Below, one piece after another: positions 29,426 through 35,845 of a DNA stretch of 64,000 nucleotides. The position numbers and the translations under genes were made by a program. This stretch comes from Bacillus sp. Y1 (lineage in GTDB: Bacteria > Bacillota > Bacilli > Bacillales > Cytobacillaceae). Location of the stretch: the NCBI RefSeq assembly GCF_003586445.1, contig NZ_CP030028.1, positions 1,254,501-1,318,500 of the forward strand, in the 5' to 3' direction. The notes beneath the pieces are model-generated. The model had not been told where the DNA came from and did not search any database. It worked only from the letters and a program-made list of their open reading frames with translations. Numbering within the stretch: the stretch's first letter is position 1; each line of letters opens with the position of its first letter.

Positions 29426-29481
29426 CTATAATATTAAAAATATTTTCTAATGAACGTAATCAATTGGAGGAAGTGACATTT

Positions 29482-30441
29482 ATGGAACATCGTAGTAAGA
29501 TTATAGACTGTACAATTCGAGATGGAGGCTTAGTCAACAATTGGGATTTTAGCGTAGAGTTTGTTCAGGACTTGTATAATGGTTTAAGTGAGGCTGGAGT
29601 TGAATATATGGAAATTGGATACAAAAATTCAGCCAGGTTACTGAACGTATCAGAACCCAATCCATGGAGATTTCTCGACGATCACTTCCTAAAAGAAATT
29701 ATTCCAGAGAAAAAATTCACGAAGCTATCTGCCTTAGTGGATATTGGACGAGTAGACCCTAATGACATCCTTCCTCGAGAGCAAAGTATCTTAGATATGA
29801 TTCGAGTAGCATGCTATGTTCGTGAAGTGGATAAAGGATTAGAACTTGTACAAATGTTCCATGATTTAGGCTATGAGACTTCTCTCAACATTATGGCGTT
29901 ATCTAGTGTACCAGAGCAACAGCTTATAAAAGCGTTTGAGTTGGTAAAAGAGAGCCCAGTAGATGTGGTATATATCGTTGACTCATTCGGAAGCTTAGAT
30001 CCTGGGGATATTGAGCACCAAGTGAAAAAATTCCAAGCACTGATTCCTAACAAACAGCTAGGAATTCATACTCATAACAATATGCAACTGGCATTTGCCA
30101 ATACGTTAACTGCGTTTCAAAATGGCGTTACGTTCCTTGATTCATCTGTTTATGGGATGGGACGTGCAGCGGGTAACTGCAACACAGAGCTTCTCGTTAG
30201 CTATATTCAAAAACCAAGCTATGAGCTTAAACCAGTTCTTGGCGTTATCGAAAAACATATGTTAGACATGCGTAAAAAGTGGGAATGGGGCTATATCATC
30301 CCTTATATGATCTCTGGTGTTCTCAATGAGCATCCACGTATTGCTATGGCATACCGTGATAGTTCAGATAGAGATAAATTTGTAGAATTCTATGACAAAG
30401 TAACGACACCTGAAGCTACTATGGTCTTAGAGTCAAAGTAA
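29482..30441 (+). CDS. HMG-lyase-like aldolase catalytic domain protein
   Basis: A 319-residue DRE-TIM metallolyase-fold protein. The family marks are D-C-T-I-R-D-G-G at residues 8-15 and the metal-binding H-T-H-N-N near 200, with G-M-G-R-A-A-G-N-C near 229. Relatives include HMG-CoA lyase, isopropylmalate synthase and 4-hydroxy-2-oxovalerate aldolase, but this short form has no C-terminal regulatory domain and its substrate is unknown. The ATG at 29482 follows TTGGAGG by eleven bases; an upstream TTG at 29464 is in frame. Confidence 0.75.
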   Translation: MEHRSKIIDCTIRDGGLVNNWDFSVEFVQDLYNGLSEAGVEYMEIGYKNSARLLNVSEPNPWRFLDDHFLKEIIPEKKFTKLSALVDIGRVDPNDILPREQSILDMIRVACYVREVDKGLELVQMFHDLGYETSLNIMALSSVPEQQLIKAFELVKESPVDVVYIVDSFGSLDPGDIEHQVKKFQALIPNKQLGIHTHNNMQLAFANTLTAFQNGVTFLDSSVYGMGRAAGNCNTELLVSYIQKPSYELKPVLGVIEKHMLDMRKKWEWGYIIPYMISGVLNEHPRIAMAYRDSSDRDKFVEFYDKVTTPEATMVLESK

Positions 30442-30490: not shown

Positions 30491-30670
30491 ATTTTTATTT
30501 TATTTATATATGTTTTATCACTATTATCAAAACAAAAAAGTGAAAAACTATTGTCATGGATGCGCTTTCGTGATAAGTTTAAAAGGTCAAATGTGACATA
30601 TTTGTGAATAATAATAATTATGTTTTTGATACGAAAACAGCGACCCTGTTGATCGGTTGAAAAATCTTTA

Positions 30671-30792
30671 TTTATTTTGTTTATGACAGTTGGTACTTAG
30701 CAGCGCTCCTGTATAAGGCAAACCGTTGTAATGATTCAGGTGAAGGTTCCTTATATAGGAGTCTAAATTTGGATTAATTACAACGGTTTTTT
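30671..30792 (+). promoter_or_regulatory. Candidate regulatory leader RNA A with intrinsic terminator, upstream of the OFA transporter
   Basis: A 36-nt core (30689-30724) can fold as a hairpin: GTT at 30689-30691 with AAC at 30721-30723, CTTA at 30696-30699 with TAAG at 30714-30717, and CAG at 30701-30703 with CTG at 30709-30711. Its last bases, AACC, are the 5' end of a perfect 12-bp terminator stem (30721-30732 with 30777-30788) with a T-rich tail, so hairpin and terminator compete. The core recurs before the molybdoenzyme (29 of 36 bases identical). I do not recognise it as a known riboswitch. The rest of the 396-base gap (30442-30837) holds the previous terminator and AT-rich sequence, and no gene. 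Confidence 0.65.
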
Positions 30793-30837
30793 GTTTTCTA
30801 TTGGAGCATCTATGCGATTGATGTAGGGGGAAAACAA

Positions 30838-32109
30838 ATGAAAACAACAAAAAATCGTTGGCTTATTGCATTATCAGCAGTTGGAATACATATTTCCATT
30901 GGTTCGGTATATGCATGGAGTAATTTTACCGCTCCCTTAAAGAACATGTTTGGGTGGTCGGATTCAGAGGTAGCACTTACTTTTAGTATCGCTATCTTAT
31001 TTTTAGGTCTCTCAGCTGCATTTTTGGGACATTTTGTAGAAAAGTATGGTCCAAGAAAAGCAGGATTACTAGCAGCCATTTTCTTTGGAATTGGTATTAC
31101 TGGTTCTGGTTTAGCAGTCGATTTTGGTTCAAAGTATATGCTTTATGTGTGTTACGGAGCACTAGGTGGAATTGGACTTGGAGTTGGTTACATCGCACCT
31201 GTTTCTACTCTAGTAAAATGGTTTCCTGATCGAAGAGGTTTAGCCACTGGCCTTGCTATTATGGGATTTGGGTTTGCAGCAGCCATTTCAAGCCCAATTA
31301 TGAACTCATTGATTGAAACTGTAGGTGTAGCGAATACATTTTATATTTTAGGTGTATCATACTTTGCTATTATGACTCTTTCTTCATTATATTTAGAGAA
31401 GCCTGCTGAAGGTTGGTTACCAGAAGGTTTTCAAGCGAAAATTGAAAGTGGAAAGGCAAAACCAACCATGGAATTGTCACAGCTAATGGCTAATGAAGCA
31501 GTAAAAACAAAACGCTTCTGGTATTTATGGCTCATGTTATTCATTAATGTCACTTGTGGAATTGCCATCTTAGCGGTAGCGAAACCACTAGCGATGGAAA
31601 GCATCGGCATTGACATGACAGCAGCTGCAGCATTGGTTGGTGCAATTGGTATCTTTAATGGTTTAGGTCGAATTGGTTGGGCTTCCTTATCTGATTATAT
31701 TGGACGTCCAAATACCTATACAGCCTTTTTTGTTCTACAAATTGTCATGTTTTTCTTTTTACCACAAGTGTCCATTCAGTGGTTATTTATGGCTATGCTT
31801 ATTGTCGTTTATACTTGCTATGGTGGTGGATTTTCTTCTATTCCAGCTTATATTGGAGATATGTTTGGTACAAAGCAACTTGGGGCCATCCATGGCTATA
31901 TTTTAACGGCATGGGCAGCTGCAGGACTAGTTGGTCCTTTATTCGCTGCATGGATTAAGGATACGACTGGCAGCTATGCAGGAAGTTTAACCTTCTTTTC
32001 CGGATTATTTGTAGTTGCATTAGTGATATCAATTTTAATAAGATTTGATATTAATAGATTAAAAGCAGAGAATGCCGGAAAGTTAGGACATTCTAAAGAA
32101 GCAGTATAA
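30838..32109 (+). CDS. OFA-type MFS transporter (oxalate/formate antiporter family)
   Basis: A 423-residue major facilitator with about twelve membrane segments. The N-terminal G-I-H-I-S-I-G-S-V-Y-A-W-S-N-F motif and L-G-H-F-V-E-K-Y-G-P-R-K near residue 62 are typical of the oxalate/formate antiporter (OFA) family. It opens an operon that also encodes an FdhF/YdeP-type molybdoenzyme, so formate, oxalate or another small carboxylate is a reasonable but unproven substrate. A GGGGGAAAA site precedes the ATG. Expression is probably controlled by the leader/terminator just upstream. Confidence 0.85.
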   Translation: MKTTKNRWLIALSAVGIHISIGSVYAWSNFTAPLKNMFGWSDSEVALTFSIAILFLGLSAAFLGHFVEKYGPRKAGLLAAIFFGIGITGSGLAVDFGSKYMLYVCYGALGGIGLGVGYIAPVSTLVKWFPDRRGLATGLAIMGFGFAAAISSPIMNSLIETVGVANTFYILGVSYFAIMTLSSLYLEKPAEGWLPEGFQAKIESGKAKPTMELSQLMANEAVKTKRFWYLWLMLFINVTCGIAILAVAKPLAMESIGIDMTAAAALVGAIGIFNGLGRIGWASLSDYIGRPNTYTAFFVLQIVMFFFLPQVSIQWLFMAMLIVVYTCYGGGFSSIPAYIGDMFGTKQLGAIHGYILTAWAAAGLVGPLFAAWIKDTTGSYAGSLTFFSGLFVVALVISILIRFDINRLKAENAGKLGHSKEAV

Positions 32110-32154
32110 TATCTAACAAAAATAGTGTAAGATAGGGAAAAAACGGTAAGTGAG

Positions 32155-32523
32155 TTGAAACGAGTGAATAAGTACGAAGCTGAGTTTAGCAATATTGTTC
32201 GAGCCTTTCGTAAAAAGCATATGGGAAAAGGTCCAAGTCAAGTTCGAACCACTTTCTCAAAAAACTGGGCCATCTGTGAACTGGAGGGGAATCTATCCCC
32301 TATTGAAAAATTCATTGCCACAGCAGAAGATGGGCGCCAAATGCTTCGCTCTGCCCGTACAGAAATGGTGAAGGAGATTTATAAAAAAAATCATCCTACA
32401 GAAATGGAAGAATTGCTTGGCACAAAATTCGTCCGTGTGTTTGTCGATATCGATATTGAGTTAGACATAGGTATGTCGATCTTTGTATTTGAAGATAACA
32501 TTGAAGAGAAATTTAATATGTAA
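32155..32523 (+). CDS. DUF2294-family protein
   Basis: A 122-residue soluble protein that matches the DUF2294 family in length and pattern: H-M-G-K-G-P-S-Q-V near residue 22, L-S-P-I-E-K-F near 44, and a V-R-V-F-V-D-I-D-I-E-L-D near 92. The function of the family is unknown. It lies 45 bases after the OFA transporter with no terminator between, so it is probably cotranscribed. The start is uncertain: a TTG at 32155 or a GTG at 32164, neither with a good RBS, suggesting low or coupled translation. Confidence 0.75.
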   Translation: MKRVNKYEAEFSNIVRAFRKKHMGKGPSQVRTTFSKNWAICELEGNLSPIEKFIATAEDGRQMLRSARTEMVKEIYKKNHPTEMEELLGTKFVRVFVDIDIELDIGMSIFVFEDNIEEKFNM

Positions 32524-32540
32524 TAACTGTTGCAAGCAGA

Positions 32541-32638
32541 TTTATTTTGTTGGAACTTGGCAGCGCACCTGTTAAAGACTAACCACCTGAAGTTTCGTCC
32601 TAATAAAAAGGAAGGATTTCTTCTGGTGGTTTTTTATA
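32541..32638 (+). promoter_or_regulatory. Candidate regulatory leader RNA B with intrinsic terminator, upstream of the FdhF/YdeP gene
   Basis: TTTATTTTGT (32541-32550) and the core (32549-32584) repeat leader A, except that A has a ten-base insertion (30681-30690) after that decamer. Possible pairs: GTTGG 32549-32553 with CTAAC 32579-32583 (one G-U), CTT 32556-32558 with AAG 32575-32577, CAG 32561-32563 with CTG 32569-32571. The closing AACC starts a terminator stem, AACCACC (32581-32587) with GGTGGTT (32625-32631), extended by GAAG/CTTC past one mismatch, with a run of six T residues. It starts only 18 bases after the DUF2294 stop. Confidence 0.65.
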
Positions 32639-32667
32639 TGAAAAAAGTGTAAATGGAGGAATAAATT

Positions 32668-35025
32668 ATGGGGAAAACAAAACATCCAGGACCACAAAAG
32701 AAAGCCTTACTACCCGCACCGAAGTACTGGGTTAGTCCCATCCCATTTGGATTAGGAAAGATTAAACCAAAACATATCCGCGATACGATGAAGGTCGCTT
32801 ATGATAATAAAGACAATTTAGGGTATGCCACTCGAATCATTACAGAGGGCGTATGTGACGGTTGTGCGCTTGGAGTATCTGGCTTGTATGACCAAACTTT
32901 AACCGGTCCACATCTGTGTACGACCCGTTTAAATGTTTTAAGATTAAACACCATGCCAGCAATTAAACCAGAGATTCTTCATGCAGATATTGACGAACTT
33001 AAAAAATATGACAGTACGGAACTTCGGAAACTTGGTCGTATCCCATATCCAATGATTCGTCGCAAAGGTGAGCGTAAGTTTTCTCGCATTACATGGGATG
33101 ATGCGATGAATATGATTGCCGGAAAGATGAAAAAGCTAAATCCTAAGCAATATGCTTTCTACTTAACATCACGTGGAATTACCAATGAAAATTATTATGT
33201 AGCAGCTAAAGTTTCACGCTTTTTAGGAGCAAACAATATCGATAATGCATCACGAATTTGTCACTCTCCAAGTAAAACGGCATTAAAACGTTCGATTGGT
33301 GTAGGAGCATCCACTTCGAACTATTTAGATTGGATTGGTACAGATATACTTCTATTCTGGGGTAGTGTGGCATCAAATGCTTCACCGGTATCTTCTAAAT
33401 ACATGTTAGAAGCTAAGAAAAAGGGTACAAAAATTATTGTTATTAATCCATATCGTGAGCCAGCAATGGAAAATTATTGGATTCCTTCCAACCCAGAATC
33501 AGCCCTATTTGGAACCAAACTAGCAGATGATTTCTACCAAGTTAATATCGGCGGAGACATTGCATTTATGCATGGAATCATGAAGCACTGGTTTGATATG
33601 GAATCCAAGCAACATGGTTCGGCAATTAATCATCAGTTTGTACAAGAACATGTGAATGGTTACGAAGAACTTAAAGCAAAGGTACAAGAGCAAACATGGG
33701 AACATATTATAGAATCATCAGGTGTAACAAAAGAGCGTATCATCGAGCTTGCTGAAATTTTAGCAAAAGCAAAAAATGCTGTCTTTGCCTGGGCTCTTGG
33801 TTTAACGATGCATTCCTTTGCAACAGACAACATCTCCCAAGTTGCTAATCTAGCATTATTACGTGGTTTCCTAGGTCGCAAGCACTCTGGTTTAATGCCG
33901 TTTCGTGGTCACTCCTCTGTACAAGGTTCTGGGGAAATGGGAGCAGATCCCTTTGTCTTACCAGGTGGAGATTTTTACGGTGAGAATATTGAGCGTATTG
34001 AAAAGCTGTGGGGCTTTAAACTTCCGCGTTGGCAAGGGGATATTGTTGGTGTCACTCTTGAAAATATTATGCTACCAGAAGACCATGAGAGAAAGGTGAA
34101 GTTATATTATTTAAGTGGTGGTAACTTCTTAGAAACCATGCCTGATCCCATATTTGTCGAAAAAGCATTATCTCAACTAGATATTCGTGTCCACCAAGAT
34201 ATTATCCTAAACACTTCTACTCTAGTAGATGCAAAAGAAGCAGTTATCGTGCTACCGGCGAAAACCAGATATGAGCAAGAAGGTGGCGGAACGTCAACTT
34301 CCACTGAAAGAATGGTTTACTATTCTCCTGAAATCGAAGGAAATAAAAACCGAATTGAGGAAGCTCGTGAAGAATGGAAAATCTACATTGATCTAGCAAA
34401 GCGTGTAAATCCTACTATGGCACATCAGGTGGATTTTAAAGATGCACAGGCGATCCGCGACGAGATCGCATTAGCAAATCCAAATTACGACGGTATCCAG
34501 CACCTAAAGAAAAAAGGTGATGTGTTCCAATGGGGCGGTGCATGGCTATGTGAAGATGGAATCTGTCCAACTCCAGATGGGAAAGGGACATTAATTACAG
34601 TCGATATCCCAAATATGGGTAAAAAAGAAGGACAGTTTTTACTAACGACTCGCCGTGGAAAGCAATTCAATTCCATGGTGTTTAGTGAAAAAGATCCATT
34701 GAACGGGTCTGACCGTTATGATGTCTTGATTAACGCTGAAGAAGCTCGTTTGCATAGGATTGCAGATGGAGAAGGGATTGTTGTCTATAATCAGCACGGA
34801 GTGTTTCAAGGACGTGCAAAGTATGCTGATATCACAACAGGGAACCTTGGTGTTCACTTCCCTGAAGGAAACTTCTTATTACCAAAAGGAAAATATGAAA
34901 AATTTGCTGGTATTCCAGATTATAATATTGCGGTAAAAGTAGAGAAAGCAGAACGTTTTAATGCTCGTAAAGATACACAATACCTGGAGAAACCAATTCC
35001 AGATCTAGAGACGGAAGTAAGCTAA
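32668..35025 (+). CDS. FdhF/YdeP-type molybdopterin oxidoreductase
   Basis: A 785-residue bis-MGD molybdoenzyme of the FdhF/YdeP family. C-D-G-C near residues 63-66 and a further Cys in H-L-C-T-T near 90 are candidate iron-sulfur ligands. R-I-C-H-S-P-S near 196 aligns with the segment of E. coli FdhF that carries its metal-ligating selenocysteine, with Cys here instead. The C-terminal MGD-binding domain follows (residues about 650-760). It lacks the N-terminal ferredoxin domains of the larger Bacillus formate dehydrogenases. The formate substrate is inferred from family and neighbours (OFA transporter, fdhD); E. coli YdeP is linked to acid resistance instead. Confidence 0.87.
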   Translation: MGKTKHPGPQKKALLPAPKYWVSPIPFGLGKIKPKHIRDTMKVAYDNKDNLGYATRIITEGVCDGCALGVSGLYDQTLTGPHLCTTRLNVLRLNTMPAIKPEILHADIDELKKYDSTELRKLGRIPYPMIRRKGERKFSRITWDDAMNMIAGKMKKLNPKQYAFYLTSRGITNENYYVAAKVSRFLGANNIDNASRICHSPSKTALKRSIGVGASTSNYLDWIGTDILLFWGSVASNASPVSSKYMLEAKKKGTKIIVINPYREPAMENYWIPSNPESALFGTKLADDFYQVNIGGDIAFMHGIMKHWFDMESKQHGSAINHQFVQEHVNGYEELKAKVQEQTWEHIIESSGVTKERIIELAEILAKAKNAVFAWALGLTMHSFATDNISQVANLALLRGFLGRKHSGLMPFRGHSSVQGSGEMGADPFVLPGGDFYGENIERIEKLWGFKLPRWQGDIVGVTLENIMLPEDHERKVKLYYLSGGNFLETMPDPIFVEKALSQLDIRVHQDIILNTSTLVDAKEAVIVLPAKTRYEQEGGGTSTSTERMVYYSPEIEGNKNRIEEAREEWKIYIDLAKRVNPTMAHQVDFKDAQAIRDEIALANPNYDGIQHLKKKGDVFQWGGAWLCEDGICPTPDGKGTLITVDIPNMGKKEGQFLLTTRRGKQFNSMVFSEKDPLNGSDRYDVLINAEEARLHRIADGEGIVVYNQHGVFQGRAKYADITTGNLGVHFPEGNFLLPKGKYEKFAGIPDYNIAVKVEKAERFNARKDTQYLEKPIPDLETEVS

Positions 35026-35044: not shown

Positions 35045-35845
35045 ATGGACAATGAAATAGATGAAGTGACCACCACTAGAAGCATCATGAGATTTGACGG
35101 CCAGGACTTCTATGAACAAGAGGAGACAATAGCTGTTGAATTCCCGCTAACGGTGATGTTGGATGGTCAGGAATTTGCTACCATGGTCTGTACCCCTGCT
35201 AATATGGAAGAACTCGTTATCGGTTTTTTAGCTTCAGAAGGTGTAATTCGAAGGTATGATGAGATTCAATCGTTAACAATTGACGACTCTAAAGGGTTTG
35301 CATATGTGGAGCTAGTGACTAAGAAGGAAATACAAAACCACCATCACTCCAAACGCTTTATTGGTTCATGCTGTGGGAAAGGACGACAGTTTTACTTTTA
35401 CAATGATATGAAAACGGCAAAAACAGTCATGAGTAAGACAACTATAACTGGCCAAGACTGTCAGAGGCTGATGAACCTTATGCAAGAAAGTTCATCTCAC
35501 TTTCAACAAACGGGCGGCGTGCACAATTCGGCTTTGTGTTCAAAAGAAGGGATCATAGTTTCACGGACGGATATTGGTCGCCACAATGCTTTAGACAAAA
35601 TTTTTGGATATTGCTTAATCAATCGCATTCCGTTGAAAGACAAGATTATTGTATTTAGTGGACGAATTTCTTCAGAGGTATTGTTGAAGGCTGCAAAAAT
35701 TGGAGTTGGAATTGTATTATCAAAATCAGCTCCTACAAACCTAGCACTTGATTTGGCTGAAGAACTAGGTATTACAGCTGTTGGATTCATTCGCGGTCAA
35801 GGGTTTAATGTATACACACATCAAGAACGTATTTTAGGTGGATAA
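35045..35845 (+). CDS. fdhD: Formate dehydrogenase accessory sulfurtransferase FdhD
   Basis: A 266-residue FdhD protein. FdhD passes sulfur from a cysteine desulfurase to the molybdenum cofactor of formate-dehydrogenase-type enzymes. The conserved cysteine pair is in G-S-C-C-G-K near residue 108, and the family blocks G-G-V-H-N-S-A near 157 and D-I-G-R-H-N-A-L-D near 176 are intact. It lies 19 bases after the molybdoenzyme gene with GGAGGGTA upstream, so the two form one unit. Confidence 0.95.
   Translation: MDNEIDEVTTTRSIMRFDGQDFYEQEETIAVEFPLTVMLDGQEFATMVCTPANMEELVIGFLASEGVIRRYDEIQSLTIDDSKGFAYVELVTKKEIQNHHHSKRFIGSCCGKGRQFYFYNDMKTAKTVMSKTTITGQDCQRLMNLMQESSSHFQQTGGVHNSALCSKEGIIVSRTDIGRHNALDKIFGYCLINRIPLKDKIIVFSGRISSEVLLKAAKIGVGIVLSKSAPTNLALDLAEELGITAVGFIRGQGFNVYTHQERILGG

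Follow-up and report, generated by a model that had tools for sequence, protein, structure and literature searches.

Two related RNA leaders lie within a 64,000-nucleotide (nt) stretch of the Bacillus sp. Y1 genome (NZ_CP030028.1, positions 1,254,501 to 1,318,500; hereafter the window), the first upstream of an OFA-type transporter gene and the second between the genes for a DUF2294/MpsC protein and an FdhF/YdeP family oxidoreductase. Both are genuine, conserved on/off switches present in many Bacilli, and the element that they represent is a widespread antiterminator-type leader outside Rfam. It is likely that these leaders act as DUF2294-dependent transcription antiterminators of formate/one-carbon (C1) genes and, judging from sequence comparison, the partner that throws the switch is probably DUF2294/MpsC of the subtype encoded in this operon (subtype A).

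Hairpins that exclude an intrinsic terminator

The preliminary description of this DNA had reported two 36-nt cores, each running into an intrinsic terminator. Direct reading of the sequence confirmed that the cores are identical at 29 of 36 positions and that the 5′ arms of the terminators start with AAACC/AACC. A pattern describing the two copies matched the window only at the cores (0 matches expected, from 100 shuffles) and, with up to three mismatches allowed, found the same two places alone in the whole 5.03-Mb genome, with no match in the backward control. The string TTTATTTTGT, noted earlier as shared by the two leaders, is present before both cores; however, its distance from the core is 9 nt greater in copy 1 than in copy 2, and it was not seen conserved in the relatives inspected; it was therefore not counted as part of the element. 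The single-hairpin layout first described also stood only in part: hairpin and terminator do exclude each other, but the OFA leader contains two hairpins in tandem, the upstream one (H1, at about 30623-30664, with apical CAGCGACCCTG at 30638) having been overlooked. The core hairpin is called H2 below.

To place the terminators relative to the hairpins, a strict definition was used (at least 8 bp, at least 4 GC pairs and a T-run), which replaced a first, looser test that was uninformative because 57 of 94 OFA H1 controls scored positive. Among the FdhF hairpins, 107 of 110 had a strict terminator starting 7-12 nt past the apical CTG, as did 99 of 118 OFA H2 matches, but none of 113 H1 hairpins did. 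The terminator thus begins in the 3′ base of H2, as expected of the cis-acting leader originally proposed, and the element has the arrangement that marks a terminator/antiterminator attenuator, a conserved hairpin exclusive with an intrinsic terminator. For the two leaders of the window, H2 alone folds at -6.5 and -8.4 kcal/mol, against -37.9 and -27.8 kcal/mol for the complete leaders. From the weakness of the isolated hairpins relative to the full leaders, we infer that termination is the default state and that something would be needed to stabilize H2.

The hairpins share a common plan: P1, whose top pairs are G-C and G.U, an internal loop NA/R, a 3-bp P2 (CTT/AAG in the leaders of FdhF and frequently CGA/TCG in H1), a bulge of one base on the 3′ side and a 5-bp P3. 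In the aligned hairpins P3 carries a loop CGNN(N)C closed by AG/CT, the invariance of AG/CT and of the loop G being partly owed to the search pattern. An alignment of 48 of 91 unique hairpins (A3) had 95.8% of its cells paired and two-sided changes in 5 of 10 pairs, and its covariation score was reached by none of 500 shuffles; an earlier alignment of 26 out of 52 distinct sequences (A1) was less telling, with two-sided change in one pair and a score reached by 15 of 500 shuffles. The bulged register was also examined in 365 pattern-selected hairpins, where it falls outside the selecting pattern. Here, -3:+4, -4:+5 and -5:+6 pair in 272, 292 and 280 of 365 hairpins, against 43%, 43% and 56% expected from column make-up, the excess being least clear in OFA H2; the 118 OFA and 19 DUF H2 rows of this set include some chance apical matches. 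Identical contexts were counted once, both in this set and in the reading of loci, and G-labelled and named loci of one genome may both occur. The earlier expectation of further copies with compensatory changes in the proposed stems is thereby borne out, and the copies stand before the same genes.

A covariance-model search of the window with the Rfam 15 families gave no match at gathering score, in agreement with the earlier view of the leader as unassigned, and a known Rfam class was rejected; below threshold (E up to 10), four matches fell within 30600-32700, none of them meaningful. In the accessible portions of the literature searched, which lay mostly outside subscription papers and included PMC2965389, PMC2864571, PMC11109978 and PMC7266159, no description of the element was found.

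Distribution, tandem arrangement and gene context

The two-copy pattern, with up to three mismatches, was present in 76 of 193 genomes of the family, with no backward match among the rows listed. A covariance model built from 26 sequences (R1) found matches in 56 of 299 genomes of the order, spread over 27 of 117 genera, and a broader model (R2, E≤0.05) found matches, some of them weak, in 55 of 398 genomes of the class. In the phylum sample 15 of 398 genomes had matches, those outside class Bacilli being weak (E 5e-4 or worse); the latter were rejected, as the four contexts inspected (L226, L227, L228 and L234) all overlap open reading frames. Two loci (L306 and L338) are of Bacilli type although their records bear the names Pseudomonas sp. 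ISL-84 and Chryseobacterium sp. ISL-80; these records are probably mislabelled or contaminated.

At the loci inspected, strong matches precede FdhF/YdeP and a more divergent copy before the OFA transporter usually lies ~1.8-2.0 kb upstream. Where a hairpin precedes OFA, 94 of 110 loci are tandem (apical spacing 58-90 nt); where one precedes FdhF, only 12 of 109 are, although in many genomes of Brevibacillus type (family f68) the FdhF leaders are tandem too; over 113 tandem pairs, the apical motifs are 56-90 nt apart. That H1 is conserved at most OFA loci yet overlaps no terminator is easier to reconcile with a bound dimer than with a lone aptamer. The order tandem leader, transporter, DUF2294 also occurs in Alkalihalophilus pseudofirmus OF4 (L287). 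When no transporter is present, a tandem leader can directly precede DUF2294 (L099, L230, L266, L269 and L272). Among 80 named loci found via DUF2294, 57 were tandem, 68 had at least one hairpin and 12 had none; all 12 have a reverse fdhD upstream, which is the unlinked arrangement, and six of them (L288, L303, L306, L312, L326 and L340) probably belong to genomes with a leader elsewhere.

The genes behind the leaders are the OFA transporter, DUF2294, FdhF/YdeP and FdhD (Table 1), which bears out the proposed link to formate-type genes. FdhF is absent from some loci, where FdhD or a moeA-type gene then stands 3′ of the leader; the suggested molybdenum link thus holds at some loci, but it is the weaker one, the constant partner being DUF2294. 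Formate dehydrogenase alpha takes the place of FdhF in G348 (TIGR01591 over cut-off), a similar 997-aa frame is found in G462, and in G499 (L235) a tandem leader precedes a formate dehydrogenase frame that an in-frame TGA divides. A close FdhF ortholog (E 0) was found in every one of 28 leader-positive genomes and in 3 of 32 without a leader; around the orthologs of these three no leader, OFA gene or DUF2294 was seen.

Table 1. Features of the two leaders and their genes in the window
Feature	Position	Strand	Remark
Upstream hairpin H1 of OFA leader	30623..30664	+	Apical CAG-CGACC-CTG at 30638-30648; same apical sequence as H2, 63 nt upstream of the H2 apical motif
Hairpin H2 of OFA leader (predicted antiterminator)	30689..30724	+	Outer stem GTTGG/CAAAC, CTT/AAG, apical stem, loop CGCTC
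Intrinsic terminator of OFA leader	30720..30794	+	5′ arm AAACCGTTG (30720-30728) overlaps H2 3′ base
OFA-type major facilitator superfamily (MFS) transporter gene, 423 aa	30838..32109	+	Above cut-off of NCBIfam L-lactate transporter model SfMCT, below oxalate/formate models
DUF2294/MpsC gene, subtype A	32155..32523	+	Start TTG 32155 or GTG 32164; predicted trans-acting partner
Single hairpin (H2 type) of FdhF/YdeP leader	32549..32584	+	Between DUF2294 and FdhF genes
Intrinsic terminator of FdhF/YdeP leader	32581..32636	+	5′ arm AACCACCTG (32581-32589) overlaps hairpin 3′ base
FdhF/YdeP family molybdopterin oxidoreductase gene, 785 aa	32668..35025	+	
fdhD, formate dehydrogenase accessory sulfurtransferase	35045..35845	+	

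Several further features were seen around these loci. The split frame of L235 has a counterpart in L216, both being compatible with selenocysteine, and one TGA also lies within several of the distant formate dehydrogenase matches of the FdhF ortholog search. L153 (G025) has a close FdhF without DUF2294, preceded by a different terminator-bearing leader. Just upstream in the window, 29464-30441 holds an HMGL-like/4-hydroxy-2-oxovalerate aldolase-like gene, not noticed at the other leader loci inspected. Promoter-like TTGCAT/TGATAAAAT boxes stand 5′ of H1 in OFA leaders, for example in the window (30540-30620) and in L043, L052 and L102. The same leaders carry TTGTGAA/TTCACA motifs repeated near the expected start, which we take to resemble ResD or Fnr/Rex boxes and which suggest added low-oxygen control. 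Just 5′ of the H2 base of L043 lies the cre-like sequence TGAAAGCGATAACT, presumably of CcpA type, with similar sequences in L044, L052, L102 and L108.

DUF2294/MpsC subtypes and their leaders

The operon protein is a member of the DUF2294/MpsC family (PF10057; 113.8 bits against a gathering cut-off of 23), although the family is named for a membrane-potential system, and it is 98% identical to a Robertmurraya korlensis protein, which suggests that the genome stands near that species. At nearly all leader loci the DUF2294 protein is of this subtype, which scores 179-251 bits to the window protein, other DUF2294 proteins reaching at most 119. In the order sample, subtype A was found in 60 of 299 genomes, among them every one of the 56 that are leader-positive. 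In the other four (G217, G277, G348 and G462), tandem hairpins are seen by eye that are too divergent for R1 and are matched by R2 only at E 0.01-0.7; the remaining 239 genomes were tested with R1 alone.

The association does not depend on linkage, for in nine genomes of one genus (g11) the subtype-A gene is kept at a locus separate from the leaders. All 20 of the leader-positive g11 genomes tested (out of 25) have a DUF2294 match of 117-120 bits over profile positions 4-111. Among 11 leader-negative g11 genomes, five (G029, G030, G032, G038 and G039) have no match above 80 bits, three (G040, G041 and G064) have DUF2294 of type C and two (G042 and G047) have strong DUF2294 matches. The last, G050, has subtype A together with a variant tandem leader, and its leader-negative call is therefore a miss of the pattern.

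The AlphaFold model of DUF2294 is confident (pLDDT 94.1), and a fold comparison gave no clear structural relative. Consequently, the case for RNA binding is built not on fold but on co-occurrence, on retention of the unlinked gene, on subtype-specific leaders and on an autoregulatory placement. No RNA role for DUF2294/MpsC appeared in the literature searched. In Staphylococcus aureus, the accessible part of PMC6689103 reports that mpsC does not contribute to MpsAB activity, that its deletion leaves growth unaffected and that a weak terminator precedes the gene. One genome (G441) has 24 DUF2294/MpsC matches, an unusual expansion.

Two other types of DUF2294 lie at formate dehydrogenase (FDH) loci, type B in the order FNT-FDH-DUF1641-DUF2294-FdhD and type C divergent from FDH, and most of these loci have hairpin-terminator leaders of their own sequence, several clearly tandem. 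Two alignments were made of sequences picked by eye, with the degenerate L345 FDH leader excluded: A5 (11 sequences) is 95.8% paired, with two-sided change in two pairs and a score reached by 24 of 500 shuffles, and A6 (8 sequences) is 98.2% paired, with a score reached by none of 500. UGG..CUA with its G.U pair is common to types A and C, and a pentaloop with G second occurs in 7 of 8 A6 rows. Plasmid DUF2294 loci (four type C, one type B) had a hairpin-terminator leader, by eye, in 5 of 5 cases; the Bacillus licheniformis one is an unannotated gene matched in two pieces. Patterns for B and C fixed beforehand missed these 5 plasmid loci and were loosened after inspection of those sequences; the final patterns matched at 12 and 11 places in 368 sequences, all at loci with DUF2294 of the same type, and read backwards gave no match in 3.03 Mb. 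Weighing against the mechanism proposed below, eight type B/C loci were missed even by the final patterns.

Two loci, L360 (from the genome of the window itself, C1:383500-392500) and L362, have DUF2294 adjoining a bicarbonate transporter of SbtA type (PF05982 in L360); terminators lie upstream of DUF2294 and in the interval separating the two genes, and no tandem hairpins are clear. In L343, L355 and L357, DUF2294 is divergent from a PF03458 (glycine transporter/TRIC-type) gene, with a leader that by eye is a type C-like hairpin plus terminator.

Alternative factors and a proposed mechanism

An unlikely alternative is that the leaders are riboswitches, their hairpins binding a small molecule (formate, oxalate, a monocarboxylate, molybdenum cofactor (Moco) or a metal) directly, with tandem copies acting cooperatively and DUF2294 being a travelling formate dehydrogenase accessory. 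The compact element, its conserved loop and internal-loop bases, its overlap with a terminator and its metabolically coherent targets would all fit, and DUF2294 shares operons with FDH, DUF1641 and FdhD as an accessory would. Moco and formate/tetrahydrofolate-linked riboswitches likewise stand upstream of molybdopterin-enzyme genes. However, the element matches no known Rfam aptamer, H1 is conserved though it has no terminator of its own, different DUF2294 subtypes pair with different leader types, and the nine g11 genomes retain an unlinked DUF2294 with the leader.

Particular structural readings were also set aside. A TGGNAC string in the leaders, which we take to look like a T-box antiterminator, was rejected as such, the leaders being too short and its bases apparently paired. 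A kink-turn in OFA H2 was dropped because tandem G-A occurs in some members only. Loop-loop kissing through CG, known from guanidine-II, was dropped as no compensatory change was seen by eye.

It is quite unlikely that the factor is another RNA-binding protein encoded elsewhere, of the LicT/SacY or ANTAR kind, with DUF2294 merely co-regulated. The RAT hairpins of LicT, SacY and GlcT, bound by CAT-domain antiterminators, have internal loops and a 3′ base that is the 5′ arm of the terminator. Our hairpins resemble them in both respects and differ in their conserved apical loop and tandem copies. CAT_RBD proteins are encoded in 26 of 28 leader-positive genomes tested, with three in the window's own genome, but were not found in G195 and G226 (96 and 97% complete), and CAT/RAT was rejected as the factor, less firmly than ANTAR. 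With the ANTAR-dependent antiterminators (targets of EutV, NasR and AmiR), the element shares conserved loop bases and, at its OFA loci, two tandem stem-loops of which the second overlaps an intrinsic terminator, a likeness in working (PMC3369931, as far as accessible). The same portion of that source describes the loops of ANTAR targets as hexanucleotides that have A1 and G4 and are carried by short stems, the linker measuring 5-12 nt in the eut genes of E. faecalis, whereas here a CGNN(N)C loop sits on a long irregular stem and the apical motifs are much further apart. ANTAR proteins were over cut-off in just 13 of 46 leader-positive genomes, including the window's own (one protein), and not in the other 33, and ANTAR was rejected as the factor; CAT_RBD and ANTAR were the only families tested for co-occurrence. 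Repression, in which DUF2294 or another factor would bind the hairpins to favour termination or would act on translation, is very improbable: although direction is not readable from sequence, the conserved bases lie in H1 and H2 and not in the terminator body, binding to H2 would exclude the terminator, and the terminator is the more stable default.

Of the original proposal, a cis-acting RNA that senses a ligand or a protein, the cis-acting part stands. As to what is sensed, the evidence favours an antiterminator bound by a protein, most likely the operon's DUF2294, over a small-molecule aptamer. According to the model that we propose, in the absence of the factor the strong intrinsic terminator would form and expression would be off. 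DUF2294/MpsC in its active state would bind H2 and, in leaders that have it, H1 as well, perhaps as a dimer that engages the two similar hairpins, and would recognize the CGNN(N)C loop, its closing pairs and the nearby internal loops. Bound protein would keep the P1 strand AACC within H2 and so block the terminator, allowing readthrough into the transporter, into DUF2294 itself (a positive feedback) and into FdhF/FdhD. The activating signal would probably be formate or a linked C1 species.

On balance, we lean towards a wider reading in which DUF2294/MpsC is an unrecognized family of RNA-binding antiterminators that respond to a signal. Each subtype (A at OFA/FdhF loci, B at FNT-FDH loci and C beside FDH or glycine-transporter/TRIC-type genes) would have evolved a cognate, often tandem, hairpin-terminator leader, and the subtypes would together form a formate/C1 regulation system in Bacilli, ANTAR-like in its working but built from an unrelated protein and RNA. 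The analysis offers an RNA class, outside Rfam, that in many Bacilli precedes genes for formate-type transport and oxidation. It also offers a testable role for MpsC, a common family of unknown function that reportedly makes no contribution to its namesake system. If the model is true, a formate- or CO2-responsive antiterminator would explain formate sensing in these bacteria and would provide a compact genetic part for C1 biotechnology.
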